Shown here: positions 12,765 to 59,862 of the stretch, piece by piece | Layout of the letters: each line of letters starts with the position of its first letter | Numbering within the stretch: the stretch's first letter is position 1 | DNA from: Nitrobacter sp. NHB1 | GTDB lineage: Bacteria > Pseudomonadota > Alphaproteobacteria > Rhizobiales > Xanthobacteraceae | Direction: 5' to 3' | NCBI RefSeq assembly: GCF_036964665.1 | Contig: NZ_JBAMDA010000001.1 | Span: forward strand, 372,001 to 436,000 | DNA length: 64,000 bases | Notes under the pieces: generated by a model | Told to the model about the DNA's origin: nothing | Databases searched by the model: none | What the model saw: only the letters and a program-made list of their open reading frames with translations | Program-made: the position numbers and the translations under genes

Positions 12765-12802
12765 CGTCAATCGTCCTACAAGTCGTCAATCGTCCTATAA
12801 GT
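12765..12802. repeat. 19-bp tandem repeat, two copies
   Basis: CGTCAATCGTCCTACAAGT is followed directly by the same 19-mer with one C-to-T change. It lies in the 241-bp gap between manC and the oxidoreductase gene. The rest of the gap shows no gene. Confidence 0.7.
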
Positions 12803-12939
12803 CTAAGTGTCGTGTAATTCTTTGAATCAAAACGTGTTGGGATTGTTATTCCTCTAATCGCCACTGTTGTGAGGGCGTGCTAGGGAGAGCGCACGGTCGG
12901 GTTCGGGGGTGCCTAGGCCGGTCGATTTTGGGGTACCTG

Positions 12940-13965: not shown

Positions 13966-13981
13966 TTGTTTAGAGGACTGA

Positions 13982-15130: not shown

Positions 15131-15173
15131 TTTCGGCGTTTTGCACCGGGAGGCGATCCTGTAGAAACACCGG

Positions 15174-33632: not shown

Positions 33633-34010
33633 GTCAGTCCACGCCCTCGTGTTACGCAACCCGCAAGTCCGCGTCACCGCTGCAAGTCCGGTCGCCGACC
33701 CGAGCCCCAAGCCGGTTCCGGGCGCGGCCACCGCCTCCGCCCGTCTTGTCGGTCACTTCCCCCAACATCTTATTGGCTTGGCGTCTCGAATGAAACGGTC
33801 GTGATTAATACAATCTTAATCATCGTTAACGGCCAGCGGCGCTAACCGCTTCGAGCTGTTCGTAATTATTGAACAGTCGGTCCGATTCGGCCGGAAAGGC
33901 GACGGAACCCGGGGTCCGTACGCGAAACGTTCTGTTAACCAGTTCCGTGATTGGCTCGGCGGGATTCCGCTCGGCAGCCTCACCCCGGAAGCGGACTTCG
34001 GATCGCAGCA
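33633..34010. other. Divergent intergenic region, no gene seen
   Basis: 378 bp between the giant repeat protein and the Hpt gene. The part around 33800-33870 is A/T-rich (GATTAATACAATCTTAATCATCG) and is the likeliest place for divergent promoters. No RNA gene or clear operator was recognised. Confidence 0.5.
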
Positions 34011-36187: not shown

Positions 36188-36252
36188 GTCATGCGCGGGC
36201 TTGACCCGCGCATCCATCACTTTTTCAAAAAGATGGATGGCCGGATCAAGTC
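36188..36252. repeat. Palindromic repeat broken at the island boundary
   Basis: Begins GCGTCATGCGCGGGCTTGAC, continues CATCCATCACTTTTTCAAAAAGATGGATG and GGCCGGATCAAGTCC. By analogy with the intact copy at 1612, the final arm should continue as GGCC...CATGAC; instead the sequence turns into the 3' end of the recombinase fragment. Confidence 0.75.
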
Positions 36253-37634
36253 CCGGTTTTGGCCGGGACTGACAAACGGGAAGAGCGGGTGTCAATCGTT
36301 GGCCTGTAGCCGGGTTTTCCAGTCCGGGTGATCCAGTCGAGGATCGTACCAAGCTCGCCTTGCAGGGCGATAACGGTGTCACGGCGCCTCTCGCCGGGGG
36401 TGACGACGATGCGGTCGATGATCTCGCGGATGGCATCGGCTGCCTCAAGCGCGTCATCGGGATGGGCAAGCGCGGCAGTCAGGCGCTCGATCCTGCGCCG
36501 GTAGGTCTCGGCGATACCGGGGTGCATGTCGGGGACATCCTGCGGCGCGTCCGACATGTGGGCGGTCAGGCTGTCCTGTCTGGCCTCAAGCTCGGTGAGC
36601 CGGTCGGACAGCGCGCGGTGCCAGCCGCCTTGCTCGATGACGCGCACGATCTCGGCAATGGCCTTGGCGGTCTCGGCAAGCTCGCGGCGCGTGGCGTCGG
36701 CTGTATTGCGGCGCTCACGGTTGAGCCGGTTAGTTTCTTGCGTGTAGGCGCGCATGGCTTCCATAGCCATGTCCGGCGTCATCATGCGCTCGCGCAGGCC
36801 GGTCAGCACGCGGGTTTCCAGAGCCTCGCGGGCAATGGTGCGGGCGTTGTCGCAGCCGTTACCGAGCACATGGTTGATGCAGGCGAAGCGGTCCTGCCCG
36901 CGACGGGCGTAGGTGCCGCCGCAACAGCCGCAGAACAACAGGCCGGACAGCAAGGTGCGCGGCCGGTGGGTGGCGTTGAGACCGCCGTTCTTCGCCGTCA
37001 TCGTTCGCGCGGCGGCGCGCGATGCCTCGGCCTGCTTCTTGTAGAGGCCAGTCAGATGGTCCTGTCTGGCCTTGGCGGCGTCCCATAGCTCCTGCGGCAC
37101 GATGCGAAGCTCAGGAACGTCCGCGCGTATCCACTCGCTTTCGGGATTGAACCGATAGGTGACGCGGCCGGTGTCGGGGTTCTTCAGCCTGCGCTGCCGG
37201 TTCCAGCGGATGACGCCGATGTAGAGTTCGCAATTGAGAATGCCGGAACTGATGATCCGGTTGCCCCGGATGGTGGTGTCGTTCCAGCGTTTGCCGGTGG
37301 GACTTGGGATACCGTCGCGGTTGAGGTCGGCGGCAATCTTCTGCGGCCCCTTGCCGGTGACATATTCGCGGAAGATGCGCCGGACGATTTCGGCGTGTTC
37401 CTCGACAATCTCGCGTTCGCCCCGGATCGGCTCGCCGTTGGCGTCGAGTTGGTGAACAACACGATAGCTATAGGCGTTGCCGCCCCCGATCTTGCCGGCC
37501 TCCACGCGTCCCCGGATGCCACGATGGGTCTTGATGGCAAGGTCTTTCAGGAACAGGGCGTTCATGGTGCCTTTGAGGCCGACATGAAGCTCGCTGATCT
37601 CGCCTTCGGACAGGGTGACGATCGTCACGCCGCA
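36246..37634 (-). pseudogene. Large serine recombinase, catalytic N-terminus missing
   Basis: What remains starts near GVTIVTLSEGEISELHVGLKGTMNALFLKDLAIKTHRG, the end of the resolvase catalytic domain. It is followed by the recombinase domain (RVEAGKIGGGNAYSYRVV), a zinc-ribbon (CGCCGGTYARRGQDRFACINH...NGCDNARTI) and a coiled-coil C-terminus. About 110 N-terminal residues are gone, including the serine nucleophile and the arginines, so it cannot catalyse strand exchange. The upstream frame to 37814 overlaps the alpA-like gene and is not homologous. The last codons lie in the broken palindromic repeat, so the natural C-terminus may also be altered. Confidence 0.88.
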
Positions 37635-37638
37635 GGCC

Positions 37639-37956
37639 TCAACAGAACTCACCGAACTCGCTTTTCGGACGCCAGGATACCGGATCGGCGATCCAGCGAT
37701 TGATGTCGGTTTCATGCCATCCCGCGCCGTTGGTGCTGATCTTGAGTTGGGCCGGGAACGTGCCTTCGGCGATTTTGCGGTAAATGGTGGAGCGGGACAG
37801 CCCGGTGCGGGCAAGGATGGTGTTCAAACGGATGATACGGTCTTCTTTAATCGGCGCGTTGCGGTCAAGCACTTCCGAACCCTCCCACTTGTGGTGCCGT
37901 TCGACGTCTTTTCGCGGCCCGCGCTTCTCTCCGGGAGAGGCATGAAGCCCTCTCAT
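37639..37956 (-). CDS. AlpA-family helix-turn-helix regulator / excisionase-like protein
   Basis: A 105-residue protein with a C-terminal AlpA/MerR-like winged helix: EDRIIRLNTILARTGLSRSTIYRKIAEGTFPAQLKI, then GWHETDINRWIADP. Such proteins regulate or assist excision of prophages and integrative elements. Its stop codon is a few bases from the point where recombinase homology begins, so an upstream deletion probably removed the recombinase 5' end. ATG 37956 is my start; the open frame reaches 37998 but that part belongs to the IS110 remnant. Confidence 0.75.
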   Translation of the reverse strand: MRGLHASPGEKRGPRKDVERHHKWEGSEVLDRNAPIKEDRIIRLNTILARTGLSRSTIYRKIAEGTFPAQLKISTNGAGWHETDINRWIADPVSWRPKSEFGEFC

Positions 37957-38112
37957 TATGGGGTCCAGTAGAATGATGTGGTCCAAACTGGTTCGCATCC
38001 TGATGATGGCTCATCGGAGATAAGACCGTATGCGAACTCACATCATTTATCGTCCGCGAAGGACGTCTTCCGCCTCGCAGCGGAACTCTAAGCTCTTTGT
38101 CTGCTGGTCGCG

Positions 38113-38554
38113 TTATGCAGTCGCGCCCGTCGTTGTTGGCCTTGTCTCCCGCGTCCAACGGAACTCCGAGCCATCTACCCACATCCGATACAGGACCACT
38201 GCAAGCCTGCGTGCCAATGCAACGATGGCCTTTTTGACCCCATGTCGTTTCGTTGCGATCGGTCTTGTTCGGCTGTTGAGCTTTCAAGAACGCTTTTGTG
38301 TGCCGCGTCTCGATACAGAGTACCGCGAATCCGGCCTTTGCCAGTCCCTCGAACAGCCATTGAGACAGTGGCCCCGCTTCGAGGCCCACCCGTTCGAAGT
38401 TGAATGCGGGATCGCTCAGGACAGCGGCCAGATCGTCCGGGTGCGTCACAACCTTTTTCTCTCGGCAGAGTTTTCCGCTTTCATCGACAATGCACACGCT
38501 CGTCTCTTTGACAGAGACGTCGAGACCCGCATAATGCTTCATGCTGCGCTTCAC
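38113..38554 (-). pseudogene. IS110-family transposase with internal deletion
   Basis: The N-terminal DEDD part is present: YAGLDVSVKETSVCIVDESGK, VGLEAGPLSQWLFEGL, ETRHTKAFLKAQQPNKTDRN. It then jumps, with a frame change at about 38250, directly into the C-terminal end of the same family (HGVKKAIVALARRLAVVLYRMWVDGSEFRW, stop at 38113). The middle of the transposase, roughly 600 bp in a normal IS110 member, is missing. The result is a short, non-autonomous element. Confidence 0.85.
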
Positions 38555-39181: not shown

Positions 39182-39324
39182 GACCTAGTATGCTGAGTAT
39201 AGGACATCCTTGCAGGCGATCCTTAAACGTGTTTTGCGCTAACCGTCGGGGTGACCGTCCAGCCTAGCGCAAGGGGAGCTTGGCCTCGCCCAATTCAGCA
39301 ACCTTTCAAGGCATATATCAGCAG

Positions 39325-40317
39325 ATGGGCCACAAAACGTGCATTCTCGTCACCGGCGGCGCAGGCTACATCGGATCGCATTGTTGCCGGGCGCTCACCG
39401 CAGCGGGCTACGAACCGATCGTATATGACAACCTTTCAACTGGCCATCGCAGCTTTGTCTCCGGTGAGATGGTGGTGGGTGATCTTATTCAGAAAGAAAA
39501 AATTGTTGCCGCTCTCAGGAAATACAACATCGCAGCGGTCATGCACTTTGCAGCTGCAAGCTTGGTGGGCGAGTCGGTCGCCGATCCACAGAAATACTAC
39601 GTGAACAACGTTGTTGGCACGCTCTCCCTATTACAAGCGATGCGCGACGCCGGCTGTCTTCGCATCGTATTCTCTTCTACTGGAGCCGTGTATGGCGACG
39701 CGGATAGCAAGGCTCTCCCTGAGAACTTCCCCTGCAATCCGATCAATCCGTACGGCGCATCGAAATGGATGATCGAGCGCATTTTAACTGATTACCGGCT
39801 TGCCTACGGCTTCGGAGCATTTTGCCTGCGCTATTTCAACGCAAGCGGCGCCGATCCAGCCGGTGACATCGGAGAATGCCGCTCCAACGAAACGCATCTT
39901 ATCCCGCGAGCGATGATGGCACTCCAGGGCTATATCGATGACTTTGCTATATTCGGAGATGACTACGATACGCCCGACAAGACAGCGATCCGCGACTACA
40001 TCCATGTCTGCGATCTCGCTGCAGCTCACGTAGCTGCTTTGAAGCGACTGCAGGAAGGACATTCGGGCGGAAGCTTCAACCTGGGTACCGGCTCCGGTTT
40101 TTCGGTGCGCGAGATCTTAGCGACCATTAAATGTGTCACAGGGAGGGATGTGCCACATTCCGTTAAGCCACGCCGACCAGGGGATCCCACCTACCTTGTC
40201 GCGGATTCTTCCGCCGCCCGCGAAATACTCGGATTCACGCCCAACTATTCAGAACTATCAACGATTGTCGAGACGGCTTGGACATGGCATAAAAAAGCTC
40301 ATCCCGCTAAAACGTGA
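39325..40317 (+). CDS. galE: UDP-glucose 4-epimerase (island copy)
   Basis: SDR epimerase of 330 residues with VTGGAGYIGSHCCRAL, DNLSTGHRSF, FAAASLVGESVADP, catalytic FSSTGAVYG and YGASKWMIER, then the GalE-specific LRYFNASGADP, DYDTPDKTAIRDYIHV and a VKPRRPGDPTYLVAD tail. All active-site motifs are intact. An in-frame start at 39280 adds 15 unlikely residues; ATG 39325 begins just before the Rossmann fold. This is a second galE in the window; its segment DPQKYYVNN differs from the copy at the left edge (DPLAYYRNN), so the two are not recent duplicates. Confidence 0.93.
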   Translation: MGHKTCILVTGGAGYIGSHCCRALTAAGYEPIVYDNLSTGHRSFVSGEMVVGDLIQKEKIVAALRKYNIAAVMHFAAASLVGESVADPQKYYVNNVVGTLSLLQAMRDAGCLRIVFSSTGAVYGDADSKALPENFPCNPINPYGASKWMIERILTDYRLAYGFGAFCLRYFNASGADPAGDIGECRSNETHLIPRAMMALQGYIDDFAIFGDDYDTPDKTAIRDYIHVCDLAAAHVAALKRLQEGHSGGSFNLGTGSGFSVREILATIKCVTGRDVPHSVKPRRPGDPTYLVADSSAAREILGFTPNYSELSTIVETAWTWHKKAHPAKT

Positions 40318-40906: not shown

Positions 40907-40972
40907 CGTGATCCAGGGGGCATCTGCAGCGCCCGCCCGCCGCGCTGCCCTATTTGTTTGGAGAGTTACTCG

Positions 40973-41749
40973 ATGACCGCCGACGCCCCATTGATGAACG
41001 TTATTTTCGAGAGGGCTACAGACAAGGCGTTCAAGGCCCGTGCCACGTTTGAATATCAACAAGTGAGAAAATGGGCGGGCCACCGGATCAACTTCGATAC
41101 GGCGCGAGTACTTGATTTTGGGTGCGGCCAAGGCGTGGCAGCGGCGTCCTTTGCGCTGCGTCATCCGGAGGCAGGCGTCGTTGGAGTGGACGTTGAGCCC
41201 GTGCTCGAGCCCCAGCTGAGCAATCTTCTAAAGACGCAGATTGGCCATGCCATTCCATCGAACCTGAGCTATCGCACCATCTCGCTGACGCCGTTGTCGA
41301 GCGAAAAATTCGATCTAATCTACGCCTGGTCGGTATTCGAGCACATCAAAGAAGACAAGATGGTCGACACCTTCGCGATGCTGAAGGATCATCTCGCCGA
41401 CAATGGCGTGCTGTTTATCTGCTGCAATCCGCTCTATTTCTCGCCGCATGGATCGCATCTCTACAAGTACTTCAAATCGCCCTGGCATCACCTGCTCTTG
41501 ACGCTAGATGAATTGCGGGACGGTGTCGTGTCCGATGGCCTCCTCTCTTCAGAAGCACGGGAGTGGCAACAATTTCTTCAGCTCAACCGGTTGACCGCTC
41601 ATGATATCATGGGGCGGGCCTCGGCGGCAGACCTCAAGCGGATTAGGCAGCATCTCTCGAAGACGGATGTGGCACCGCCGCCTCGGCTCGCCCGGCTGTA
41701 TGATAACGACGCTCTGACGACGACCGAGCTTGTAGCCACTTTTTCTTGA
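40973..41749 (+). CDS. Class I SAM-dependent methyltransferase
   Basis: The 258-residue methyltransferase has motif I VLDFGCGQGVAAASF, the acidic end of strand 2 VVGVDVEP, FDLIYAWSVFEHIKED (post-motif II) and a typical NGVLFICCNPLYF strand. GGAGAG seven bases before ATG 40973 fixes the start; a TTG at 40958 is rejected. Among polysaccharide genes, it most likely methylates a sugar or a glycan end, but the substrate is not readable from sequence. Convergent with the next gene. Confidence 0.83.
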   Translation: MTADAPLMNVIFERATDKAFKARATFEYQQVRKWAGHRINFDTARVLDFGCGQGVAAASFALRHPEAGVVGVDVEPVLEPQLSNLLKTQIGHAIPSNLSYRTISLTPLSSEKFDLIYAWSVFEHIKEDKMVDTFAMLKDHLADNGVLFICCNPLYFSPHGSHLYKYFKSPWHHLLLTLDELRDGVVSDGLLSSEAREWQQFLQLNRLTAHDIMGRASAADLKRIRQHLSKTDVAPPPRLARLYDNDALTTTELVATFS

Positions 41750-41792: not shown

Positions 41793-42731
41793 TCACGGCC
41801 TAACGCTACCTGGCGTGGTCCCATACAATATATTGTCTACATAAATCGTTTGAGTTGTCGGCTGACGTCGACGATAGATACCGATGTCGAATCCGATGTC
41901 TTGCGTGATCTTGCCATGTTCAATCACGGACACCGGATCTGGCTTATAGCCCCAGCATCCGCTCCAGTTCGCAATGCTTACGCCATCAACTGAGGCCTGA
42001 ACTTTTCCACCGCTCACTCCACACGGGGACGGTTTCAAGTCGAACACGACATGAAACCAACGTTCTCGTTCAACGGCAAATGAGCCCACTACTACGGGCT
42101 GGCCGTGCGCAGCTCTTTCGCTCTTATCCGAAGATACCGCAAGCTCGAGCGTAATTTCTTTGTCGTTGGACTTGGCGGGATTTACACGCATGACAAGGAC
42201 TGGATGCCCCGCGCAGCATTGGAATGCCTGGAAGTGAATGAGCCAGTACCGTGGCACCTGATAAGATTTATCCAACATCATATCAAAGCTGATAAACCGC
42301 TCATTATCCGGACTGCTTACCGTGGTATGCTGGCTCGATTGATGGGGCACCGCATTAAGAAAAATTTTGTCCTTTACGTTCTTGTCTTCTTTAGACGTTA
42401 GGGAAATTGCGAGGGAGCGAGCGCTATTCCCAGAGCGGCGATCCACGGGAACACGCTCATCGAGCCAAACATTAAAGTCCGACCCGATATCAACAGTAAA
42501 CGGATATGAACCAAATTCAGCAGGACCATGAATCAGAAAATAAAATGGCTTCGACAGGTTCCGCTTCGGGAATTTCGAGGTGTCAATTTTGTTAGACAGA
42601 GAGAACGTTAACGAAGATATCAAACCAGATTGTTTTGACAAAGCTTCGCTTGCATATACGAAAACGATAATCGCACAGCACAAAAATAGAACGCCAAATT
42701 CCCTTAACTTGCGAGATGAAAAGATGGCCAT
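41793..42731 (-). CDS. Secreted polysaccharide-lyase-like (jelly-roll) protein
   Basis: The 312-residue product has an N-terminal hydrophobic segment (about 10-32, signal or anchor) and a mature domain with the pattern of heparin-lyase-I-like / concanavalin-type folds: HGPAEFGSYPF, ERERWFHVVFDLKPSP, VQASVDGVSIANWSG, GFDIGIYRRRQPTTQTIYVDNILYG. The terminal 'GIYR...YVDN' block is common in alginate/heparin-lyase-like secreted proteins. A periplasmic or surface role on the locally made polymer is inferred. Base composition is more A/T-rich than neighbours. It starts 60 bp downstream of an IS3 remnant, with a weak ribosome site. Confidence 0.62.
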   Translation of the reverse strand: MAIFSSRKLREFGVLFLCCAIIVFVYASEALSKQSGLISSLTFSLSNKIDTSKFPKRNLSKPFYFLIHGPAEFGSYPFTVDIGSDFNVWLDERVPVDRRSGNSARSLAISLTSKEDKNVKDKIFLNAVPHQSSQHTTVSSPDNERFISFDMMLDKSYQVPRYWLIHFQAFQCCAGHPVLVMRVNPAKSNDKEITLELAVSSDKSERAAHGQPVVVGSFAVERERWFHVVFDLKPSPCGVSGGKVQASVDGVSIANWSGCWGYKPDPVSVIEHGKITQDIGFDIGIYRRRQPTTQTIYVDNILYGTTPGSVRP

Positions 42732-42946: not shown

Positions 42947-43618
42947 CTATTGAGAAAATACAGTTTCAATAAAACGCAGGCGATCTTTATCGACCTCGTC
43001 GAGAAGGTTGGAGGAGTTCCTTGAACGGGTGAAATAAGCGTCCACTTCGACGAGATCGCCTTCAAAATGGGCGATTGGATTGAGGCGACGCAGGACCAAA
43101 CCGTGTCGATCGAGAAGGCTGACAAGATCAGACAGAAGGTGTTGGCCACGGTAGATCGGATAAAGATGAGCCTCTAGTTCAATGCCGAGGACACCGTCCA
43201 AGAGACTTCCGAAACCTTGCAAGACCTCGTATTCACAGCCCTGTACGTCAATCTTGATAACGTGGGGAGCCGGAACCTCTCCGTCTGCGTAAAGGCGATC
43301 GTAGCGTACACAATCAATGGTCGTCGTGTCGATGACTTCGAATTGCTTCGCTATCGGGTAGCTATTCAGGAAACTGAAATCCGGCTCGCGAAGAGACGTG
43401 CATCCGAAATGTTTCGTAAGATATAGCGTTTTGCTGCCGGCGTTATCATACAGGCCTTTTTGAATGATCGAGATATTGGCCCGCCCCGCATACTTGGCTT
43501 GAATTTTTTCGGCCTCGGAAGGATTACATTCAAATATCACAGGGTGAATGCGATCCAAAAAGCGTTCCCATTTTGGTTGAAGGCCGCCGGCGCCTCCCAC
43601 ATCGATCAGATTGAGCAT
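42947..43618 (-). CDS. FkbM-family methyltransferase
   Basis: The 223-residue SAM methyltransferase begins LNLIDVGGAGGLQPKWERFL, continues FECNPSEAEKIQ, CTSLREPDFSFL, and the FkbM hallmark VIKIDVQGCEYEVLQGFGSLLDGVLGIELEAHLYPIY. FkbM enzymes O-methylate sugars or polyketides; here a glycan is likely from context. GGAGAAG before ATG 43618 fixes the start, and a longer frame to 43660 is rejected. It is the last gene of a minus-strand series that begins with the giant glycosyltransferase. Confidence 0.88.
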   Translation of the reverse strand: MLNLIDVGGAGGLQPKWERFLDRIHPVIFECNPSEAEKIQAKYAGRANISIIQKGLYDNAGSKTLYLTKHFGCTSLREPDFSFLNSYPIAKQFEVIDTTTIDCVRYDRLYADGEVPAPHVIKIDVQGCEYEVLQGFGSLLDGVLGIELEAHLYPIYRGQHLLSDLVSLLDRHGLVLRRLNPIAHFEGDLVEVDAYFTRSRNSSNLLDEVDKDRLRFIETVFSQ

Positions 43619-43761
43619 GTAGTCTTCTCCGAATGCAGTAACCGTAAGGAGCCATCTCACATTCTAACGAAGATCATGCCTCGTTCATCTGAATGGCGCA
43701 ACTCGCTGTCATGGACGACAGTCTAACCTCCAGTATCTTCGGCGCATATGAGACGTACCAG

Positions 43762-43805: not shown

Positions 43806-44756
43806 CTAATTGCCATCAACATCGGATGGCGACACCGCCTCGAAGTTGTCTCGTTCGAAAAACGATGCCCATCTCTCGGAATCGTAGCGGATCAATCCCT
43901 CTCGAAGCAGATCCCAGTTCCGCGAGGTTACCACGAGGTCCCGCAAGTCGTTTGCGGTCCAGTCGCGTTTCGCGCTCCGAACAAAGCCAGCCAGCTTGAC
44001 GATGTAGCGCTCGTCGAACAGCACGGGATGGCGCCAGCGCTGATTGAGCGTGGTGACCCTCGGTCCATACACCGGGAAGTTGGTCGTGCATTCGGCCACG
44101 TCACCGAAATCGGAGAGCGGCGCGGCGCGATAGCCCAGCCGGTCGACCTCAGTGGCGATGAACGGCTCGCAATGAACCCACACCTCCAGCGACCGCGAGC
44201 GCCGGAATCGGGCCATCTCCAGTCGCCGCGCAAACAAATCCAGCGCGAACCGTCGGGACACGATCACGAACGGAAAATTGCACTGTCGCATCTTCGACAG
44301 ATCGAACTGCGAGTCGACCTCCCGCTGATACCATTGGATCGTGCTCTCATTCCAGACCCAGCGCGGACCCGCCTGAGCAAATTGATGCGCGACGAGATCG
44401 ACGTTGCCTTCGATGACGCGCTTCATGACATCCAGCAGATCGACCGCCGGTATGGAGTCATATTCCATCAGCACGAGATGATCGAGATCCGTTGCAAGCA
44501 GCGCCGTATACAGCGCGTAATCGCCGCATTGCCACATGCAACGTTCGGCGTTGGGATATATCGGCAATCCCATCCGCTGAAAATCGGCGAGCCGGTGGGT
44601 AATCTTCTGGATATTCCCCTCGCAGTCCACCGGACCATTGGTCTCATCCGCAAGCAGAATGACAGGCTGCCCGGCGGCCTCACACTGCAGCCGGTACATG
44701 CGCTCCGCATCGGGATTCCAGAAATGTGTCCTAAAGAAGAATCCGGTCTTCGTCAT
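43806..44756 (-). CDS. Hypothetical protein in polysaccharide locus, possible glycosyltransferase
   Basis: I do not recognise the 316-residue protein with confidence. It has an alternating a/b look: GFFFRTHFWNPDAERMYRLQ, PVILLADETNGPVD, RCMWQCGDYALYTALLATDLDHLVLMEYDSIPAVD, FPFVIVSRRFALDLF, VHCEPFIATEVDRLGY. The segment LVLMEYDSIPA could serve like the acidic motif of a GT-A glycosyltransferase, and the position between transferase genes fits, but neither is proof. No signal peptide or membrane span. AGGCGGA before ATG 44756 supports the start. Confidence 0.7.
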   Translation of the reverse strand: MTKTGFFFRTHFWNPDAERMYRLQCEAAGQPVILLADETNGPVDCEGNIQKITHRLADFQRMGLPIYPNAERCMWQCGDYALYTALLATDLDHLVLMEYDSIPAVDLLDVMKRVIEGNVDLVAHQFAQAGPRWVWNESTIQWYQREVDSQFDLSKMRQCNFPFVIVSRRFALDLFARRLEMARFRRSRSLEVWVHCEPFIATEVDRLGYRAAPLSDFGDVAECTTNFPVYGPRVTTLNQRWRHPVLFDERYIVKLAGFVRSAKRDWTANDLRDLVVTSRNWDLLREGLIRYDSERWASFFERDNFEAVSPSDVDGN

Positions 44757-44915: not shown

Positions 44916-45527
44916 TCAAGAGATCCGCTCAAGACAAAAGCTGAAGTAGGTGTCTGGGTCGATCGACAGGTATTTATATCGCCACCCCGCGTTCCTGCAG
45001 AACGCACCTGTCGCCTGGATCACGCCATAGACATGCGGCGCCACGACATTGCCAGCCGAGAAATCGTGCCCCGCGATAAGGCCGCGCACGCTGCATTTGC
45101 GAGAGGACAATTCAAGCTCTTGAGCCGTAAGGTCGTAGGCATGCGTGGTATCAAGGTAGATGAAGTTGAAATAGCCGTCCGGAAAGCTGGACAAGACTTC
45201 GGTCGAAAAGCCCCGCACGATTTCGACCGCGCCGGTCTCGATCTGCTTCGCGAACCTGTTGGTGACGGTCGCGAGCCCTTCCAAGAAGCGCTCGTCTTCC
45301 CAGGCATCGACCAGGTAAAGCTTGTCCGGCCGAAGACGCGCAATGATCTCTTGGCTGAAGTCACCTGAGGCAACCCCGACCTCGACGGCTCTCCCTCCCT
45401 TTGGGAGCACATCGAGCATGTCATCCCTGGTCGGGACGACCCGACAGTGCTCGGTGTGCATGGGGTCAAGCCTTTGTCCCTTGATCCGGTCGGCTTCTGC
45501 TTGCCGCTTCGATTGCGCGTTATCCAT
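44916..45527 (-). CDS. Class I SAM-dependent methyltransferase (Methyltransf_24 type)
   Basis: The 203-residue methyltransferase shows the SAM loop AVEVGVASGDFSQEI, acidic strand LYLVDAWEDERF, FPDGYFNFIYLDTTHAYDLTAQEL (the 'YLDTTH' motif typical of this group) and GLIAGHDFSAG. Such genes are frequent in O-antigen and exopolysaccharide loci and probably methylate a sugar. GAGGAAA before ATG 45527 is a good ribosome site. It lies 48 bp downstream of the giant glycosyltransferase on the same strand, so co-transcription is likely. Confidence 0.85.
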   Translation of the reverse strand: MDNAQSKRQAEADRIKGQRLDPMHTEHCRVVPTRDDMLDVLPKGGRAVEVGVASGDFSQEIIARLRPDKLYLVDAWEDERFLEGLATVTNRFAKQIETGAVEIVRGFSTEVLSSFPDGYFNFIYLDTTHAYDLTAQELELSSRKCSVRGLIAGHDFSAGNVVAPHVYGVIQATGAFCRNAGWRYKYLSIDPDTYFSFCLERIS

Positions 45528-45575: not shown

Positions 45576-48500
45576 TCATAACTTTGAAAATGCTCTAGTC
45601 GGAACAAAGCAATATTCAACAGCCTTGCTATTGAACTGGATGTCTGGAAGAGCGCTAAAGCCACTACTTTCCATGAGACGGGATAACAACTCGGTCCAAG
45701 CGAACCAGTCTTGGCTGCTCGCCAGCGACCGCTGCAAGAGGACAACTGCGCCTGGCAACATGACGCGTGCCAGTTCATTCGCGATCATCTGAAGATCCGC
45801 CTCGGAAAGCTCACCGCAGCGGATAAGCGACAGGTGAAATGAAGCCGACCGGTTTGGAAGACGGCCCTTTGCCTTTAGTTCAGCGATCAGCGCCTCAACC
45901 GTCATCCGCGGGCCCTGGAACTGTCGCGCCCACTCGTTTTCAAGCCTGCCTTCCAGACCGACCGCAAGCGTCGGCAGACGCCGGTACATATAGATGCCTT
46001 CGCTCAGCCATCTGTAGACCGAACGGTCCTCCGGCAATGCCTCGCATGACGGGCACTTGGCCGCCTCGCCAAAGCTCGGGCCGTACCAATCGCAGATGTT
46101 GCAATGCTTGAGCTTGCCGCCCACAACCGCGTCATAGCGATCGAGTTCATCGGGCAGGACAGGGTGGGCAACCACCAGCGTCTCATCGAAACGTTGGGAC
46201 AGCGTGGGCCGGCTCTTGTTGAAGAGCGCAAGCATGCCGGGAACGGTCCCGAGCTTCCAACCGTTGCTCTCCGCATAATAGCTATATTCGACATCTGTGT
46301 AGCTGTGCGGGACGTCCTCGCTGAAGCCCCCGATCTCGTCCACCATTTTCCGGCGCATACCAAACAGGCCACCCTGCACATGACCGAATACCCGGTCGGG
46401 ATTATCGGTGGCGAAAGATGTGTTGCGAAATTTGGGGAACAACTCGATACCTGACGGATATTCAGATCCGTGCAGATAGGTCGGCGAATAGCCCATGGTG
46501 CCGACAAGCCCAGCCTCCGGCTGTTCCTCAAGCGCGTGCACAATCGGGATCTCCCAGCCGCGGCCGAAGCTGACGCCTTCCTTGCCGCATATGTAGATCG
46601 CGTAGTCGCTCGCGCCCTGCGCCAGCGCCGCGTTGGTGCCGGGGCCGACCATGGCATTGACCTCGTTGTGGATCACCGTTACCCGGTCCTGCTTCTGCCA
46701 GAGATCGTTGAGATATTCGGCAACCGGCTCCCGCCGGCTCTGGTTGTCGCAGACAACCAGATGATACGGCAGGGATGTGTTCTCGAGAATCCGCTGCACC
46801 GTCATTTTCAGCTCGGCGAGGTTGTTCCAGGAAACGATGATTACGTCGACTGTGTTATTGCGCCAGACCCGCATCAGCACCCGTGTCAGACGCACAACAT
46901 CGTGGCGCTCGCGTGCACGTTGCGCCGCCGCGCGAATGATCGCGCGTACTTTGAGCGAGGGCATGCCGTAATAGCGTCGAATGCCCTCAGCCACGCTCTC
47001 TGGCGTCTGTTCGACCATGATGCCGGTGATGTCGTCGATCACGAGATCAGGAATGCCCGCGAGGTTGGTCGTCAGTACCGGCACGCCGGCGGCCATGCTC
47101 TCCACCAGGGAAGTCGGAATGCCATCCATGTCGCCGTTCTCGATGCGTACAGAGGGCGCGACGAACAGATCGGCAGTCTTCATCTTGTCGACGATCTCGT
47201 CCTGACTAAGCTGCCCCATGATCTCGACATTGCGAGCGCCGACCTCGGCGATGAGGCGGCGATACTCCTCCTCCAGTTCGCCATAGCCATAGATCTCGAT
47301 GCGAACGCCGAGGTCCTCGATCAGCGGGGCAGCGCGAATCAGCAGGTCGAGGCCCTTCTTCTTCACGAAGCGATGGACAGAAATAATCTTGCGAGCCGAG
47401 CGATTCTGCTTCTCCTCATCGTAGGCGGCCGAGAAGCGGCTGGTATCCACCGCGTTCGGATTGATGATGACCTTCTCACGCGGGAAGCCGCGCTCGACGA
47501 CGAAATCCAGGTGAAACTTGGATAGCGTGAACAGGGCGCGGCACCACTTGGACTGGCCGATCTCCGCCAAGCGGTTCCTCTTGTCGTTCTCGTAGCGGAA
47601 GATGTCCTGGGCGTGGGCGATGAAGGTGAAGGGAATCTGCGCCTCTTCGCAGGCAGGCCACACCATGTCGGTGACGACCGGATAGACGAAATGCGCATGC
47701 ACGATGGTCCGTCCGGTCTCCTTTAGGCGCTGGGCGAGCTTCTTCGGCGAATCGACACGCTCGAAAGTAATCGGGAATGACGGTCTGAAGCCCTTCCATG
47801 GCGTCTGGCGACAGAACACCAGCACGTCGGCGCCAGTCGCAACCAGCGCCTCGAGCTCGTTGAGAACGAACGTTTCCGAGGGAACCGGGAAGTGCCAGCA
47901 GAAATAGGCGATGCGCGGTCGCTCCTCTCGATCCTTCAATCCCGGCAGGCGCGCCGGCCGGATGAGCGGCGCGCGGGTGGCCTCTCGCACCTCACGCGGC
48001 GGAATGATTTTGGCATAGGCTTCCGCCATCTTGATCCGGTAGCTTGGTAAGGCAAATCGCGCCACCGCGATTTCCCGCCCGCGCTCGCCCAACTGCTTGA
48101 TGAGCTGCGGATTGCGGCAGAGCTTCTCCACACAGGGCAACGCTTTCGCATATTTCTTGAACTCGACCAGATAGCCACTCTTGCCGTGGTCAATCAGCTC
48201 GGGCAGCGCGCCCCAGCGATAACCGATGACGGGTCGTCGGGCCGCCATCGCCTCCAGTACCGTGCGCCCGAACGATTCAGCGAAATGCGAGAAATTCAGG
48301 ACCACGTTGACCTGCTCGACAGCCTGCTTGGGGCTGGATGCATAGCCGGGGAAGACGATGTTGTCGGGGAGCTCGCCTGAGGTCTGCTTTGCCTTCAGCT
48401 CCTTAACCAGGTCGTTTTCGGGACCGATGATGACGAACTTGGCATTCTTCACCTTAGCCGCCGCCAGCTGCGCCAGCTGCACGACATCGGCTATCCCCTT

Positions 48501-51026
48501 TTTTGGAATGTTGCTGCTGATCAGCCCGAACCTGACCTCACCGCCAGACAGGTCGTTGGCGATGTCCATGGCTTCGACATCGATGGTGTTCGGAATGGTG
48601 AAGGTGCAGCCTTCCTTGGCAAAGGCGCGCCCGGTGATCTCGGAATTGCCAATCACCCAGTCGGCGCGCGCCTTTGTGTCGCGGATGATGTCTCCCGGCG
48701 TCGCGCCGATCAGGTCCTGCAGCGCCTGATCGTGCTGGATGAGCTCCCGGACATGTACGATCCCCGGGACGCCGCACCTGCGCGCGGCATCGAGCGGCTC
48801 GCGCAGCATGATGGTGTTGACGTGGACAGCATCGATGCGATCCGTCGGTATGATGTATTCAAACGCCTCCAACGCCCTCGGAGAGATAGCCTCGCCATGT
48901 CGCCACCATTTGTAGTCAACAATATAGACGCGATGGCAGAGCGGACGAATGGCGTTGGTATAGTCCGGCACATTGCGGGGCAGCACTACGAACACATTTC
49001 CCGGGATGCTGCCGACGGCGTCGACCATGTCAATGAAGCTGCGCTCACTTCCGAATAGTTGATCGCTGGCAATGTGCGCGACGATCAGGACATTGGGGGC
49101 GCCTTCGCGGTAGCCTAGCTTGCCCGGGAATTGCTTGGCGATCAGCAGCGTCGGGTCCGGCTTTGCCGCAAGCTGGGCGGCAGGCACCGCGACAGGCGGC
49201 AACGTCGGCGCGGCGAATGGGGCATTCTTGAAAAAGCCGACGATCATCTCAGAAGACAGCCGCCTCAACCCTTCCGTGGCGAAGTGATCCAGGCCGGCCG
49301 AAGCAAGACCCGCGTCCTGCCGCTTTGCAAGTTGTGCGTAAGTGCGCGCGTCGAAATACGGATGCGGATCGTTCAGCGCTGCCGCGCCCGTCGCCAGATA
49401 ATGCAGCAGGGGGGAGGTGCTGCGGTCGTCACCCAGATATTTCTGACGGTAGAACTGGGGCGAAAAAAACGGTGAAGGCTGACGGTCCTCGTGCTCCCCC
49501 TGAAGCAGGTAATGCAGCAGTGGATCGGCCTGCAGCGGGTCGAGGTCCATTGCCTCGAGATAGTATCGGCTGCTGAACAGGGCGTGCGGGCTTGCGCCGT
49601 GAGCCGCACCGAAGATGGCGAAATGCGAATAGGGCTCCAAGTCGATCGGCTCTTCGAATTGCGCCTCGTAATAGGCCGCATCGAACAGCGGGAGAAACGC
49701 GAACTTCTTCTCGCGCCAACCACTGGTGAGATAATCGAGCAGCGCAATCGCGGTGTGACTGTCGGGAAGGCCGGCCTTGCGCGCATAGGCGGCTGGGTCG
49801 AACAGCGGATGCGGACTGGGTGGTGAAGGGCCAATTTCGAGGAACCGCGTGAGCCACGTGCTACCCTCCGGCGGCTCATCGACGTACTTCGCGTAGAATT
49901 GGGTTGAGAACAACGGATGCGGATCTCTGCGCGACCGCGAGCCGTACTCGATGTAATGGCAGAGCGGCTCGATGCCATCGCGGGCGAGTTCCTGATTGCG
50001 CATCAGGTAGAATGGAACCGAAAAAAGGGGCTGCGGGCTCTTACCCTCGCGCCATCCCGCGGTCGCATAGTGGTTGATCAGATCGGTGCCACGCGGCAAT
50101 GGCTGCTCGAACTGTCTCTGGTAGTATTCCGGATCGAAAAGCCCGCTCTCTCCTATTAGCCGGACTTGTTCAATAATCTGCTGTCTCGAGCGAGTATCGG
50201 CGCCAATCAGACTGGGATTGAGGAAACTTTCTTCCTCTCGGTACAGATCAAGCTCCTCCCGCAACCCATATTGCAGCACTGGCTTGCAGGCATCCAGCGT
50301 CGCATCTAGCCAGCGATTTTGTTCCGAGAGCAGCCCGATGAATCTCGTGGCAGCGTCGAGACGTTGCTCGTAGCGGCTCCTGATCTCTGCCAAATCTCCG
50401 GAAAGCTTTGAGAGTTTAGTTTGATAATCGCCATCTTTGGCTGCGTTGTCGAGCTTCAGCTTCGTTGCAATGGCGGTCGCATCCTTGTGCTCGTTCTGCA
50501 GCCGATTGAGCTTGAGGATGACAAGGTCATACTGCGCGCGCAGCGATGCTTCCCGGTCAAGGGCCACTTCCAACAGTGATTGCATCTCAAGCGGCGAACG
50601 CTGGTCAGCGGTCATTGCCTTACTTGCTTTCGGCGCGTTCGCCTGACCGTCCGGTTGAATTGGTAGCCCTTTCGGAACCGCCGATGAGTGGTCGTCCTTC
50701 GCTGCGAGTCTTGCCAAGTTCCGAGTCACCTCATTAAAGAGAGCTTCATGGTCGCGCTTCAGCAACTGCAGCTCTTTCAGCAATACTTGATCGGGCTCCA
50801 GTTTGGTCGTGGCAACCAGCTGGAACAAAGTTTTTAGCGAGCCTAGGACGTCTATGCATTCCCGCCGCGCGGCGCTTAGCGCTCTTTCCATCTCTGCGAC
50901 AAAATCAGGGTGTCCGCATCTATCTCCATCCAGCTGGGCCGTGATGGCACGTAGCTTCGGCGTTAGTTCTGCAATCCGGATGTGAAGCTTGCCGATCGTC
51001 GCTTCGAACTTATTTACTTGGTTCAT
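45576..51026 (-). CDS. Giant multidomain glycosyltransferase (1816 aa): coiled coil + 8 repeats + GT4 + GT4 + GT2 + Zn-ribbon tail
   Basis: Domain order by eye: residues 1-260 coiled coil; about 290-595 eight repeats of 37-40 residues with consensus F....Y...(x)n PL.HY...G.....P.PLF; about 640-990 a first GT-B/GT4 domain (NVLIVAHIASDQLFGSERSF, NIPKKGIADVVQLAQ, HFAESFGRTVLEAMAARRPVIG, an intact EX7E); about 1035-1385 a second GT4 (RIAYFCWHFPVPSETFVLNELEAL, ISVHRFVKKKGLDLLIRAA, MDGIPTSLVESMAAGVPVL); about 1392-1610 a GT2 domain (VDVIIVSWNNLAELKMTV, DNQSRRE); then CNIC...CPSC (zinc ribbon) and a degenerate methyltransferase-like end. No membrane span. Probably assembles a polysaccharide chain with more than one linkage; polymer unknown. 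AGGG before ATG 51026 is the ribosome site. Confidence 0.92.
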   Translation of the reverse strand: MNQVNKFEATIGKLHIRIAELTPKLRAITAQLDGDRCGHPDFVAEMERALSAARRECIDVLGSLKTLFQLVATTKLEPDQVLLKELQLLKRDHEALFNEVTRNLARLAAKDDHSSAVPKGLPIQPDGQANAPKASKAMTADQRSPLEMQSLLEVALDREASLRAQYDLVILKLNRLQNEHKDATAIATKLKLDNAAKDGDYQTKLSKLSGDLAEIRSRYEQRLDAATRFIGLLSEQNRWLDATLDACKPVLQYGLREELDLYREEESFLNPSLIGADTRSRQQIIEQVRLIGESGLFDPEYYQRQFEQPLPRGTDLINHYATAGWREGKSPQPLFSVPFYLMRNQELARDGIEPLCHYIEYGSRSRRDPHPLFSTQFYAKYVDEPPEGSTWLTRFLEIGPSPPSPHPLFDPAAYARKAGLPDSHTAIALLDYLTSGWREKKFAFLPLFDAAYYEAQFEEPIDLEPYSHFAIFGAAHGASPHALFSSRYYLEAMDLDPLQADPLLHYLLQGEHEDRQPSPFFSPQFYRQKYLGDDRSTSPLLHYLATGAAALNDPHPYFDARTYAQLAKRQDAGLASAGLDHFATEGLRRLSSEMIVGFFKNAPFAAPTLPPVAVPAAQLAAKPDPTLLIAKQFPGKLGYREGAPNVLIVAHIASDQLFGSERSFIDMVDAVGSIPGNVFVVLPRNVPDYTNAIRPLCHRVYIVDYKWWRHGEAISPRALEAFEYIIPTDRIDAVHVNTIMLREPLDAARRCGVPGIVHVRELIQHDQALQDLIGATPGDIIRDTKARADWVIGNSEITGRAFAKEGCTFTIPNTIDVEAMDIANDLSGGEVRFGLISSNIPKKGIADVVQLAQLAAAKVKNAKFVIIGPENDLVKELKAKQTSGELPDNIVFPGYASSPKQAVEQVNVVLNFSHFAESFGRTVLEAMAARRPVIGYRWGALPELIDHGKSGYLVEFKKYAKALPCVEKLCRNPQLIKQLGERGREIAVARFALPSYRIKMAEAYAKIIPPREVREATRAPLIRPARLPGLKDREERPRIAYFCWHFPVPSETFVLNELEALVATGADVLVFCRQTPWKGFRPSFPITFERVDSPKKLAQRLKETGRTIVHAHFVYPVVTDMVWPACEEAQIPFTFIAHAQDIFRYENDKRNRLAEIGQSKWCRALFTLSKFHLDFVVERGFPREKVIINPNAVDTSRFSAAYDEEKQNRSARKIISVHRFVKKKGLDLLIRAAPLIEDLGVRIEIYGYGELEEEYRRLIAEVGARNVEIMGQLSQDEIVDKMKTADLFVAPSVRIENGDMDGIPTSLVESMAAGVPVLTTNLAGIPDLVIDDITGIMVEQTPESVAEGIRRYYGMPSLKVRAIIRAAAQRARERHDVVRLTRVLMRVWRNNTVDVIIVSWNNLAELKMTVQRILENTSLPYHLVVCDNQSRREPVAEYLNDLWQKQDRVTVIHNEVNAMVGPGTNAALAQGASDYAIYICGKEGVSFGRGWEIPIVHALEEQPEAGLVGTMGYSPTYLHGSEYPSGIELFPKFRNTSFATDNPDRVFGHVQGGLFGMRRKMVDEIGGFSEDVPHSYTDVEYSYYAESNGWKLGTVPGMLALFNKSRPTLSQRFDETLVVAHPVLPDELDRYDAVVGGKLKHCNICDWYGPSFGEAAKCPSCEALPEDRSVYRWLSEGIYMYRRLPTLAVGLEGRLENEWARQFQGPRMTVEALIAELKAKGRLPNRSASFHLSLIRCGELSEADLQMIANELARVMLPGAVVLLQRSLASSQDWFAWTELLSRLMESSGFSALPDIQFNSKAVEYCFVPTRAFSKL

Positions 51027-54188: not shown

Positions 54189-55319
54189 GGAACCTCTGAG
54201 CAACGTCACTTTTTCTGAAGTAGTCGCAACAGGTTTGCGTTGGCGGTGAAGGGTCCTTTGTTTACACCTGCCGCGGGCGGCATTCGCCCGGCGACTTTGT
54301 CAAGCGGACGCAAGTGTCCTGCGGGCAAGGAATAGGTTTGTGAGCGCGAGCAACGCGAAGACCTGTGCGCCGTTTTTGGCGATGCCGCGATAGCGAACCT
54401 TGCGATAGCCGAACTGGTATTTCATCACCCGGAACACGTGCTCGACCTTGGCGCGGATTTTTCCGAAGCGGCGATTGCGCCGGCGTTGCGATATCGACAG
54501 CGGGCGTCCGGGCTTCGCTTTCGCCTTCACGGCCCACAGAACACCCGCTGCTTCCGCCTGTCGTTGTTTGCGGTCGTTGGCATATCCCTTGTCGCCATAC
54601 ACCGCACGATCATCCTCGCGGATCAGATTGTCCATGACCTTGGCGTCATGCACACTGCCTGTGGTCACGCCCGCGGTGTGCACGAGCCCGCTTGTCGCAT
54701 CGACACCGATGTGGGCCTTCATGCCAAAGGACCACTGGTTGCCCTTCTTCGATGAGCGCATCTCGGGGTCGCGCTTCTGTGCCTTGTTCTTCGTCGATGG
54801 CGATGCCGCGATCAGCGTCGCGTCGATGATGGTGCCGCCACGCAGCAGAGCACCGCGAATCTCCAGAAACTCTGCAATCGCGACGAATATCGCCTTCGTC
54901 AACTCGTGACGCTCCAGCAGATGCCGGAAGTTCAAGATGGTCGTCTCATCGGGGATGGTGTCGCGTCCGAGCTCCAGACCCGCGAACGTGCGCATCGAGC
55001 AAATGTCGTAAAGCACTTCTTCCGCGCCGGGATCAGAGAGGTTGTACCACTGCTGCAAGCAATAAATCCGTAGCATCACCGCCAATGGAAATGGTCGCCG
55101 ACCGCCACTCGGACCCGCCTTGGGATAATGCGGCTCGATCAAAGCTTCGAGCGCGACCCAAGGCACCACGCCTGCCATCTCAGCCAAAAACACATCTCGC
55201 TTCGTGCGCTTCTTCTTGGCCGCATAATCGAGCGACGCGAAACTCAGCTGGCCCATCCGAGCGCCTCCCCGAATCAATGATCGAAGAGTGCCATAGTCGC
55301 CAAGTTGTGCAGAGCTTCC
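54189..55319 (-). mobile_element. IS5-family insertion sequence, copy A
   Basis: 1131 bp with terminal inverted repeats GGAACCTCTGAGCAAC (left) and, reading inward from the right end, GGAAGCTCTGCACAAC. Nearly identical to copy B at 58733 but in opposite orientation. No clean target duplication is visible at this copy. Confidence 0.9.
54300..55256 (-). CDS. IS5-family (IS5 group) transposase, copy A
   Basis: The intact 318-residue DDE transposase opens GQLSFASLDYAAKKKRTKRDVFLAEM and has ALIEPHYPKAGPSGGRRPFPL, LRIYCLQQWYNLSDPGAEE, DETTILNFRHLLE, IDATLIAASPSTKNKAQKRDPEM (first Asp), GNQWSFGMKAHIGVDA, VYGDKGYAND (second Asp) and RAKVEHVFRVMKYQFGYRKVRYRG (Glu), closely following the E. coli IS5 plan. 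ATG 55256 follows GGGGAGG. It differs from copy B at three residues (V/M, L/M, T/A near the C-terminus). It could be active. Confidence 0.95.
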   Translation of the reverse strand: MGQLSFASLDYAAKKKRTKRDVFLAEMAGVVPWVALEALIEPHYPKAGPSGGRRPFPLAVMLRIYCLQQWYNLSDPGAEEVLYDICSMRTFAGLELGRDTIPDETTILNFRHLLERHELTKAIFVAIAEFLEIRGALLRGGTIIDATLIAASPSTKNKAQKRDPEMRSSKKGNQWSFGMKAHIGVDATSGLVHTAGVTTGSVHDAKVMDNLIREDDRAVYGDKGYANDRKQRQAEAAGVLWAVKAKAKPGRPLSISQRRRNRRFGKIRAKVEHVFRVMKYQFGYRKVRYRGIAKNGAQVFALLALTNLFLARRTLASA

Positions 55320-58457: not shown

Positions 58458-58732
58458 ACCTCTCCTTTGTGAAAGACCGCTCCTTGCGGTTGCCAAGACA
58501 TTGTGTTCACGGCTGAACCATTCGACTCTTTCTGGCATTGCTGTTCCTTCAGTCGCGGATCACGATCGGCGAGGCAGGATCGCGACCTATCCTGCCTAAG
58601 CCTTGCTACGGCTAGCCGAGACACCGATGCCGCACGTTCGGGGGTTGCTCTTAAAGATGCATTTCTAATGTATCTTTATCCGCGTCGACCGCAACCGAAA
58701 CCCCAGCGATGCGGTGACAACTTCCTGTGACT

Positions 58733-59862
58733 GAGTGCTCTGCACAACTTGGCGACTATGGCACTCTTCGATCATTGATTCGGGGAGGCGCTCGGATGGG
58801 CCAGCTGAGTTTCGCGTCGCTCGATTATGCGGCCAAGAAGAAGCGCACGAAGCGAGATGTGTTTTTGGCTGAGATGGCAGGCGTGGTGCCTTGGGTCGCG
58901 CTCGAAGCTTTGATCGAGCCGCATTATCCCAAGGCGGGTCCGAGTGGCGGTCGGCGACCATTTCCATTGGCGGTGATGCTACGGATTTATTGCTTGCAGC
59001 AGTGGTACAACCTCTCTGATCCCGGCGCGGAAGAAGTCCTTTACGACATTTGCTCGATGCGCACGTTCGCGGGTCTGGAGCTCGGACGCGACACCATCCC
59101 CGATGAGACGACCATCTTGAACTTCCGGCATCTGCTGGAGCGTCACGAGTTGACGAAGGCGATATTCGTCGCGATTGCAGAGTTTCTGGAGATTCGCGGT
59201 GCTCTGCTGCGTGGCGGCACCATCATCGACGCGACGCTGATCGCGGCATCGCCATCGACGAAGAACAAGGCACAGAAGCGCGACCCCGAGATGCGCTCAT
59301 CGAAGAAGGGCAACCAGTGGTCCTTTGGCATGAAGGCCCACATCGGTGTCGATGCGACAAGCGGGCTCGTGCACACCGCGGGCGTGACCACAGGCAGTGT
59401 GCATGACGCCAAGGTCATGGACAATCTGATCCGCGAGGATGATCGTGCGGTGTATGGCGACAAGGGATATGCCAACGACCGCAAACAACGACAGGCGGAA
59501 GCAGCGGGTGTTCTGTGGGCCGTGAAGGCGAAAGCGAAGCCCGGACGCCCGCTGTCGATATCGCAACGCCGGCGCAATCGCCGCTTCGGAAAAATCCGCG
59601 CCAAGGTCGAGCACATGTTCCGGGTGATGAAATACCAGTTCGGCTATCGCAAGGTTCGCTATCGCGGCATCGCCAAAAACGGCGCACAGGTCTTCGCGAT
59701 GCTCGCGCTCGCAAACCTATTCCTTGCCCGCAGGACACTTGCGTCCGCTTGACAAAGCCGCCGGGCGAATGCCGCCCGCGGCAGGTGTAAACAAAAGACC
59801 CTTCACCGCCAACGCAAACCTGTTGCGACTACTTCAGAAAAGTGACGTTGCTCAGAGGTTCC
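58733..59862 (+). mobile_element. IS5-family insertion sequence, copy B
   Basis: 1130 bp, nearly identical to copy A in inverse orientation. The right end reads GTTGCTCAGAGGTTCC followed by CTAA. The left end is slightly decayed (GAGTGCTCTGCACAAC where copy A and the stub have GGAAGCTCTG). Confidence 0.9.
58796..59752 (+). CDS. IS5-family (IS5 group) transposase, copy B
   Basis: 318 residues, same motifs as copy A, with three substitutions: VEHMFRV, VFAMLAL and LALANL. All three catalytic acids are intact. ATG 58796 follows GGGGAGG. Because the left terminal repeat of this copy is degraded, the transposase may act in trans on copy A rather than on its own element. Confidence 0.95.
   Translation: MGQLSFASLDYAAKKKRTKRDVFLAEMAGVVPWVALEALIEPHYPKAGPSGGRRPFPLAVMLRIYCLQQWYNLSDPGAEEVLYDICSMRTFAGLELGRDTIPDETTILNFRHLLERHELTKAIFVAIAEFLEIRGALLRGGTIIDATLIAASPSTKNKAQKRDPEMRSSKKGNQWSFGMKAHIGVDATSGLVHTAGVTTGSVHDAKVMDNLIREDDRAVYGDKGYANDRKQRQAEAAGVLWAVKAKAKPGRPLSISQRRRNRRFGKIRAKVEHMFRVMKYQFGYRKVRYRGIAKNGAQVFAMLALANLFLARRTLASA

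Follow-up and report, generated by a model that had tools for sequence, protein, structure and literature searches.

How might a single bacterial polypeptide use three glycosyltransferase-like domains joined to a long non-catalytic arm? The question is raised by a gene of Nitrobacter sp. NHB1. We analysed a stretch of 64,000 nucleotides from this genome, here called the window (assembly GCF_036964665.1, contig NZ_JBAMDA010000001.1, positions 372,001-436,000 of the forward strand), in which one minus-strand frame encodes a protein of 1816 residues. An earlier sequence-only reading had described the product as a fusion of a coiled coil, eight repeats, two glycosyltransferase domains of family GT4, one of family GT2, and a zinc-ribbon tail. 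We confirm this description in its main parts and find the interpretation attached to it partly supported. The protein combines known modules in an uncommon way and, among its relatives, the N-terminal arm is exchanged over a constant enzyme core. There is, in our judgement, a little better than an even chance that this is a cytoplasmic polymerase of several modules, making a surface heteropolysaccharide of the capsule, exopolysaccharide or O-chain type. The gene and its parts, with the basis of each assignment in brackets, are as follows.

45576-51026, minus strand: whole gene, 1816 residues, repeat-GT4-GT4-GT2-ribbon-tail (open reading frame, Pfam, base composition by codon position)
50142-51026, minus strand: charged, helical-looking region and possible coiled coil, residues 1-295 (heptad power, fourfold-site composition)
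49245-50141, minus strand: eight repeats of 36-39 residues, each predicted to form two short helices, residues 296-594 (profile, AlphaFold)
47997-49094, minus strand: first GT4 domain (GT-B), residues 645-1010 (Pfam, Foldseek, motif)
46863-47915, minus strand: second GT4 domain, residues 1038-1388, with Asp replacing the first Glu of EX7E, GDMDGIPTSLVE (Pfam, alignment)
46107-46859, minus strand: GT2-like domain (GT-A), residues 1390-1640 (Pfam, profile comparison)
46575-46589, minus strand: CGKEG in place of the DxD/NxD metal motif, residues 1480-1484 (alignments)
46044-46103, minus strand: zinc-ribbon-like motif CNIC...CPSC, residues 1642-1661 (four conserved Cys)
45579-46043, minus strand: weakly methyltransferase-like tail and least conserved domain, residues 1662-1816 (PDB comparison, identity)

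The frame begins with ATG, runs through 1816 codons without an internal stop, and has gene-like guanine-plus-cytosine (GC) content by codon position in all 12 blocks of 150 codons over residues 1-1800 (third position 0.59-0.83, against 0.35-0.47 at the second); on these grounds it is a real gene, as had been proposed. A Pfam scan detected two GT4 stretches (PF00534, E 1.3e-52) and one GT2 stretch (PF00535), and with an alignment of the members it bore out both GT4 domains, the GT2-like domain and the CxxC/CxxC ribbon. GC at fourfold sites is uneven along the chain, at 0.78-0.84 across the three enzyme domains, 0.75 for the repeats, 0.66 for residues 1-295 and 0.58 for the tail, in keeping with a mosaic protein.

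A scan of genome contigs gave 14 stretches matching the pattern, seven of which were confirmed as relatives: two Sphingobium strains, Roseomonas, Paracoccus, Thalassococcus, a Roseovarius metagenome-assembled genome (MAG) and an alphaproteobacterial MAG. A plasmid search contributed a member on Dinoroseobacter shibae pDSHI02, and genome searches contributed G592 and G1041, which brings the family to 11 members with the window protein included. Two further plasmid rows, of the same species and record length, and G743, taken to be pDSHI02 itself, were not recounted, and a weak match, G583, was rejected as a different GT2 protein carrying NND in its metal motif. Because the two Sphingobium cores are 98% identical, the family amounts to about ten independent sequences. 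The order GT4-GT4-GT2-ribbon-tail lies in one frame in 10 of the 11 members, the other (L029) being cut by a contig end inside the first GT4, and core identity to the window protein is 44-58%. One way for the sequence-only reading to be wrong was a fusion or assembly artefact, with homologues always in separate genes; this is ruled out by nine other members with the same order in one frame, from separate assemblies and including one complete plasmid, and the architecture search returned ten further alphaproteobacterial members in all. Nor, as far as the searches reached, does the architecture belong to an already described common family: none of the 25 NCBIfam models listed (of 44) comes near its cut-off for the 1816-residue protein, and the Dinoroseobacter member is annotated merely as 'glycosyltransferase'. 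A literature search, narrow and no proof of absence from print, found no description of the architecture or of the repeat.

The family is rare. Among 385 genomes of the class the window protein found only itself; a sample of 299 genomes from the phylum returned itself and G592, plus the weak match to another GT2 protein; and 3 of 394 genomes from the family of G592 hold a member. These searches scored only the few best first-look candidates (4 of 21, for example), and members were possibly missed. Eight genomes of the same genus contained no core-length match and one GT4-only match. The named member genera presumably span at least three orders, and this scatter, together with the rarity of the family and its one occurrence on a plasmid, suggests that it has moved between lineages. 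A stretch resembling the first GT4 was also seen on Sphingobium xenophagum plasmid p5 (L033, 12001-12942), where it is the sole match and ends at the start of the record; several short frames annotated as GH99-like lie upstream of it, and the locus may be a broken member.

Exchange of the arm is evident when the N-terminal parts of the members are compared. The window protein has eight repeats. In Roseomonas about twelve repeats, with boundaries placed by eye, accompany two stretches of galectin type (PF00337, E 4.8e-8), and the members from Paracoccus, Thalassococcus, Roseovarius, Dinoroseobacter, G592 and G1041 have two repeats. Sphingobium has no such repeat; it carries instead about five beta-type repeats of ~115 residues (by eye), for which there was no Pfam match at E 1. 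The gene at L025 154-6651 places galectin-type stretches (best at residues 182-255) N-terminally in a bacterial glycosyltransferase chain.

The window repeats start at residues 296, 333, 371, 407, 446, 482, 519 and 556, a spacing of 36-39; some boundaries, and the end of the last repeat, were placed by eye. A profile built solely from 18 repeats of four relatives was run on them. Five matched strongly (E 3e-11 to 4e-6), the repeat at 407 was marginal (E 0.043), and those at 371 and 556 were individually not significant. When the repeat region was shuffled, 6 of 500 controls gave any listed match, the best at E 0.27, and this comparison upholds the claim of eight repeats before the glycosyltransferase domains. 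The stretch at 296-594 has no Pfam match even at E 10, tetratricopeptide repeats (TPR) included, and NCBIfam gave chance-level matches, the best at E 0.16. Structure prediction, which the sequence-only reading had called for, yielded an AlphaFold model with two short helices per repeat at moderate confidence (mean predicted local distance difference test score, pLDDT, 73.8; predicted template-modelling score 0.72). A Foldseek search with this model found no PDB match better than E 7. Because the alignment behind the model holds few independent rows, we treat a new fold for the repeats as a possibility only.

In register, window repeats 1-8 fit Roseomonas repeats 1-8 with a score of 479, against 234-289 when slid by 1-4, and 11 of 20,000 random assignments fitted as well. 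Counting against this in-register reading, the best individual match lies at another position for five of the eight. Given the fit of the row, a recent expansion of the eight repeats looks unlikely. As for the proposal that the repeats act as a ruler, members with one and the same enzyme core carry anything between 0 and about 12 copies, and these numbers do not support a fixed ruler.

The repeats had been called novel-looking; they are not special to this protein. Of 149 genomes sampled from the host's family, 34 match the repeat region, counting the host itself. We fetched ten regions with top-ranking matches and scanned one repeat-bearing protein in nine of them (L056 was excluded). A small gene in the neighbourhood of the Dinoroseobacter member, itself repeat-bearing, was scanned too. 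Of the nine proteins, eight fall into the GT2, GT4 or WbsX types of glycosyltransferase; the ninth is an RTX-type protein. The latter (L057, 5042-8158) has a 5'-nucleotidase C-terminal domain, a calcium-binding repeat and, C-terminally, six helical repeats of the same kind; the repeat is therefore found in a probably secreted protein as well. Indirect support for glycan binding by the arm comes from this carrier and from the galectin domains of Roseomonas. The repeats of a further relative (L058, 4690-5559) match the uncharacterised Pfam family DUF7669 (PF24706) in three stretches at 39.3 bits, against a cut-off of 23. Of eight repeat stretches scanned by themselves in Pfam at E 10, L058 was the only one to match DUF7669, those of the window protein and Roseomonas being among the seven without a match. 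The repeat is thus uncharacterised, and DUF7669 probably covers part of it.

Residues 1-295 are charged and helical-looking, and a coiled coil had been claimed for them. Heptad power, the one measure used, barely exceeded that of shuffled sequences: the best sub-stretches were nominally above the shuffles (122 of 5000 for residues 80-110, 92 of 5000 for 170-240), and the longer stretches gave 229 of 5000 (1-110) and 575 of 5000 (145-260). The coiled coil is thus a weaker part of the description, a possible feature of a helical-looking charged region. We considered whether it could serve as a coiled-coil ruler in a polymerase/terminator of the Klebsiella O12 or O7 kind, measuring chain length from the N-terminus. 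The weak heptads and the multi-glycosyltransferase chain speak for this, and such proteins combine coil, terminator and glycosyltransferase modules, as set out in PMC11231755. By eye, however, no comparable long N-terminal region exists in the Sphingobium, Paracoccus, Thalassococcus and Roseovarius members. Moreover, no recognised enzyme lies beyond the coil-like region, so it does not separate a terminator from a polymerase as in the WbdD/WbbB type, and the methyltransferase-like part is C-terminal and under every Pfam cut-off. We consider a coil ruler highly improbable.

Within the core, the first domain qualifies as GT4: Glycos_transf_1 is over its cut-off, the GT4 motif EX7E is present as ESFGRTVLE and kept in 11 of 11 members, and Foldseek matched the core to GT-B folds (HepE, PglA, BshA). 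The second domain also qualifies as GT4, with Glycos_transf_1 over its cut-off at residues 1208-1363 and the Asp variant of the motif, whose ends are invariant in eight aligned members (D657 and E665 in core numbering). Identity to the window protein is 36-53% for the first GT4, 52-68% for the second, 51-67% for the GT2-like domain and 24-38% for the tail.

The third domain is more ambiguous, and it is here that the earlier count of three glycosyltransferases is in doubt: three glycosyltransferase-like domains are present, and in every member the GT2-like one lacks its metal motif. PF00535 matches at residues 1395-1479 (E 5e-8, 33.5 bits against a cut-off of 23.3). It is above cut-off in three of the seven members scanned (the window protein, L024 and L059) and below in L025, L026, L032 and L061, in which the domain was located by alignment. 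Profile comparison (hhalign) with ten canonical GT2 domains from the fetched loci gave a probability of 97%. The domain therefore has the sequence relationship of a GT2/GT-A enzyme and lacks DxD/NxD: CGKEG stands in 11 of 11 members where 10 of 10 canonical domains carry NND, NSD, DHD or the like. The residue opposite the metal Asp varies with the alignment: two BLAST alignments and two of three MAFFT modes place Lys there, the third mode places the Gly after the Glu, and hhalign sets Lys and Glu against a gap. None of the alignments made with these three programs places an Asp there. The TDVE segment, at the usual position of the catalytic base, is likewise retained by all 11 members. In GT-A enzymes that work without metal, basic residues can take its place; a literature search on this point found nothing.

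The methyltransferase-like end of the protein is a weaker part as well. Compared with PDB chains of anamorsin and methyltransferases, the tail gave E 0.095-0.89, by eye it has no GxGxG, and no Pfam methyltransferase matched the window protein at E 0.1; two relatives gave sub-threshold matches (E 0.24 and 0.22). The resemblance is thus weak and sub-threshold. The ribbon-like motif preceding it keeps its four Cys in 11 of 11 members, and Zn_ribbon_8 is below cut-off in two relatives. One might ask whether the enzyme really has just two glycosyltransferases, with the GT2-like domain and tail as decayed, functionless remnants, as the lost metal motif, the minority of PF00535 matches above cut-off, the low conservation of the tail and its low fourfold-site GC would allow. 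Decay is hard to reconcile with a GT2-like domain conserved like the second GT4, with replacing residues that are invariant in all members, and with retention of TDVE and the four Cys, and we think it very unlikely. Judged from this conservation, the CGKEG change looks selected rather than decayed.

How, then, would such a chain work as a polymerase? The two GT-B domains would add the sugars of a repeat unit in turn. The arm, predicted to be helical, may keep the growing chain, an acceptor or partner enzymes close to the active sites and thereby increase processivity, by comparison with the TPR arm of Cps3D discussed below, and the galectin or beta-type arms could do the same job in relatives. 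The GT2-like domain may be a metal-independent enzyme in which an invariant Lys-Glu pair replaces the metal-binding Asp, or it may have turned into a conserved part that binds the acceptor or serves the structure. For ribbon and tail, a structural role or the binding of partners is most likely.

A surface-polysaccharide role is indicated by the polysaccharide genes beside the relatives. The Sphingobium member is accompanied by an ABC-2 exporter, an ABC ATPase, two pyruvyl transferases and glycosyltransferases; the Paracoccus member by RmlD, a nucleotidyl transferase, WbsX, a GT2 protein and a sulfotransferase; and the pDSHI02 member by galE, pyruvyl transferases, a sulfotransferase, a nucleotide-sugar dehydrogenase, YjbF/YjbH and heparinase II/III. 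Upstream of the Roseovarius member we also observed a 1463-residue protein with one GT2 and two Glyco_trans_1_2 stretches (L028, 2467-6858). The suggestion that one chain adds several linkages gains from these surroundings and from the retention of several transferase modules as one chain (complete in 10 of 11 members), and loses from the doubtful third transferase.

Domains on one chain need not polymerise. They could instead build a non-repeating stretch (an adapter, a linker, a core oligosaccharide or a protein glycan), each acting once, with the arm docking an acceptor protein or lipid carrier. RTX/calcium-binding proteins near the Dinoroseobacter member and near a related Thalassovita protein would suit this alternative, as would the RTX protein bearing the same repeats. 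A polymer is the better fit for the glycosyltransferase genes, the ABC exporter and the pyruvyl and sulfo transferases found near relatives, and in the subset of neighbours scanned there was no RTX protein beside the Sphingobium, Paracoccus or Roseovarius members. We regard the non-repeating stretch as a serious minority possibility.

Several observations weigh against the surface-polymer proposal itself. We know of no member for which an activity or a polymer has been established, and no common sugar can be named because the neighbour sets of the relatives differ. The genome of strain NHB1 has three Poly_export and two ABC2_membrane matches, all of them outside the window, so there is no exporter of these two kinds beside the gene. 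The other four AlphaFold models of the repeats reached a pLDDT of 44.7-52.4, and the GT2-like domain and parts of the second GT4 were poorly modelled. A more ambitious version of the polymerase proposal would make the family an unnamed class of processive polymerases in Alphaproteobacteria, in which a fixed core of two GT4 domains and a metal-independent GT-A domain carries exchangeable, polymer-gripping arms (the uncharacterised helical repeat, galectins or beta-type repeats); these arms would determine specificity or chain length and be passed from locus to locus. This we find distinctly doubtful, its standing having been lowered by the DUF7669 match and by the alignment-dependent placement of Lys opposite Asp.

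The genes following the window gene, and those beyond them, were assigned as follows.

44916-45527, minus strand: Methyltransf_24 protein, 48 bases past the stop (Pfam)
43806-44756, minus strand: protein of 316 residues, no Pfam or NCBIfam match at E 0.1 (scans)
42947-43660, minus strand: FkbM-type methyltransferase (Pfam, NCBIfam)
41793-42731, minus strand: polysaccharide lyase PF14099 (Pfam, E 1.3e-9)
40958-41749, plus strand: class I methyltransferase (Pfam)
39280-40317, plus strand: UDP-glucose 4-epimerase galE (NCBIfam), also found near the Dinoroseobacter member

By eye, the 316-residue protein contains LVLMEYD, which is similar to a GT-A metal motif. Fourfold-site GC is 0.53-0.61 in three of these six neighbours and 0.74-0.81 in the other three, compared with 0.78-0.86 in seven genes elsewhere in the window, and the block around the gene looks imported. 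A large serine recombinase (36246-37814, minus strand; PF07508, E 1.7e-23) adjoins a piece of an IS110-type transposase (37865-38554), possibly an integration border. On the other side lie two IS5-family transposases in opposite orientation (54300-55277, minus strand; 58727-59752, plus strand), 99% identical over 325 residues, and the stretch around the second is a 97.3% match to a Nitrobacter hamburgensis X14 plasmid. Farther away, at 624-16700, heptosyltransferase I, HldE domains, mannose-1-phosphate guanylyltransferase and MurJ are over their NCBIfam cut-offs, and an aminotransferase and dehydrogenases are below; these lipopolysaccharide heptose and sugar-nucleotide genes mark the first 16.7 kb as a host surface-glycan cluster, ~29 kb from the gene. 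A second giant frame (28344-33731, minus strand; 1795 residues) is, by eye, rich in coiled-coil-like and alanine/serine repeats.

Beyond what the sequence-only reading had seen, the analysis adds an arm that is exchangeable over a constant core and an invariant CGKEG at the place of the GT2 metal motif. If the polymerase reading is true, a single core with natural arms of 0, 2, 8 or about 12 repeats, or galectins, makes it possible to test directly whether processivity and chain length are set by a non-catalytic arm. A repeat present in 34 of 149 sampled genomes of the host's family would then have its first function, and the protein would provide a case of a GT2 domain trading its metal motif for an invariant basic-acidic pair.

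Among known proteins, WP_012187257.1 of D. shibae pDSHI02 is a true member with GT4-GT4-GT2-ribbon-tail and a core 44% identical; it differs in having two repeats (L060), 1302 residues and no long N-terminal region. A 931-residue protein of Thalassovita gelatinovora pAge77 shares a domain like the first GT4 (34% identical), but there a GT2 domain (E 8.6e-32) comes before the GT4 and the chain stops right after that single GT4. DUF7669 matches this kind of repeat in L058 and has no match at E 10 to the repeats of the window protein. Bcs3, the Haemophilus influenzae b capsule polymerase, is likewise a multi-enzyme chain and has a non-catalytic, SH3b-like polymer-binding domain, according to PMC11666461; its enzyme modules and binding domain are of other kinds. 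WbbB of Klebsiella O12, ORF6 of O7 and WbdA/WbdD resemble the window protein in joining several glycan-assembly modules per chain, partly with a coiled coil and a methyltransferase (PMC11231755). Unlike them, it has no ruler between polymerase and terminator, and its methyltransferase-like part is degenerate and C-terminal.

Cps3D and Cps7D of Actinobacillus pleuropneumoniae are nearer in plan: a single chain holds a helical N-terminal part, an arm of helical repeats and two GT-B domains. Their arm is needed for processive elongation, and active TPR truncations give shorter, less disperse products, read as more distributive synthesis (PMC11666461). Foldseek matched our core to Cps3D (8qoy) over 847 columns (E 2.5e-16) with a TM-score (template-modelling score) of 0.18-0.20, which marks the match as a string of domains and not one superposition. 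Theirs is a TPR arm with one TagF-like transferase, whereas the window protein has non-TPR repeats, two GT-B domains that are both GT4, and then GT2, ribbon and tail; no TagF-like glycerol-phosphotransferase domain was matched in it by Pfam at E 0.1. By analogy, the window protein may work like the Cps3D family, its nearest working analogue, without being a member of it.

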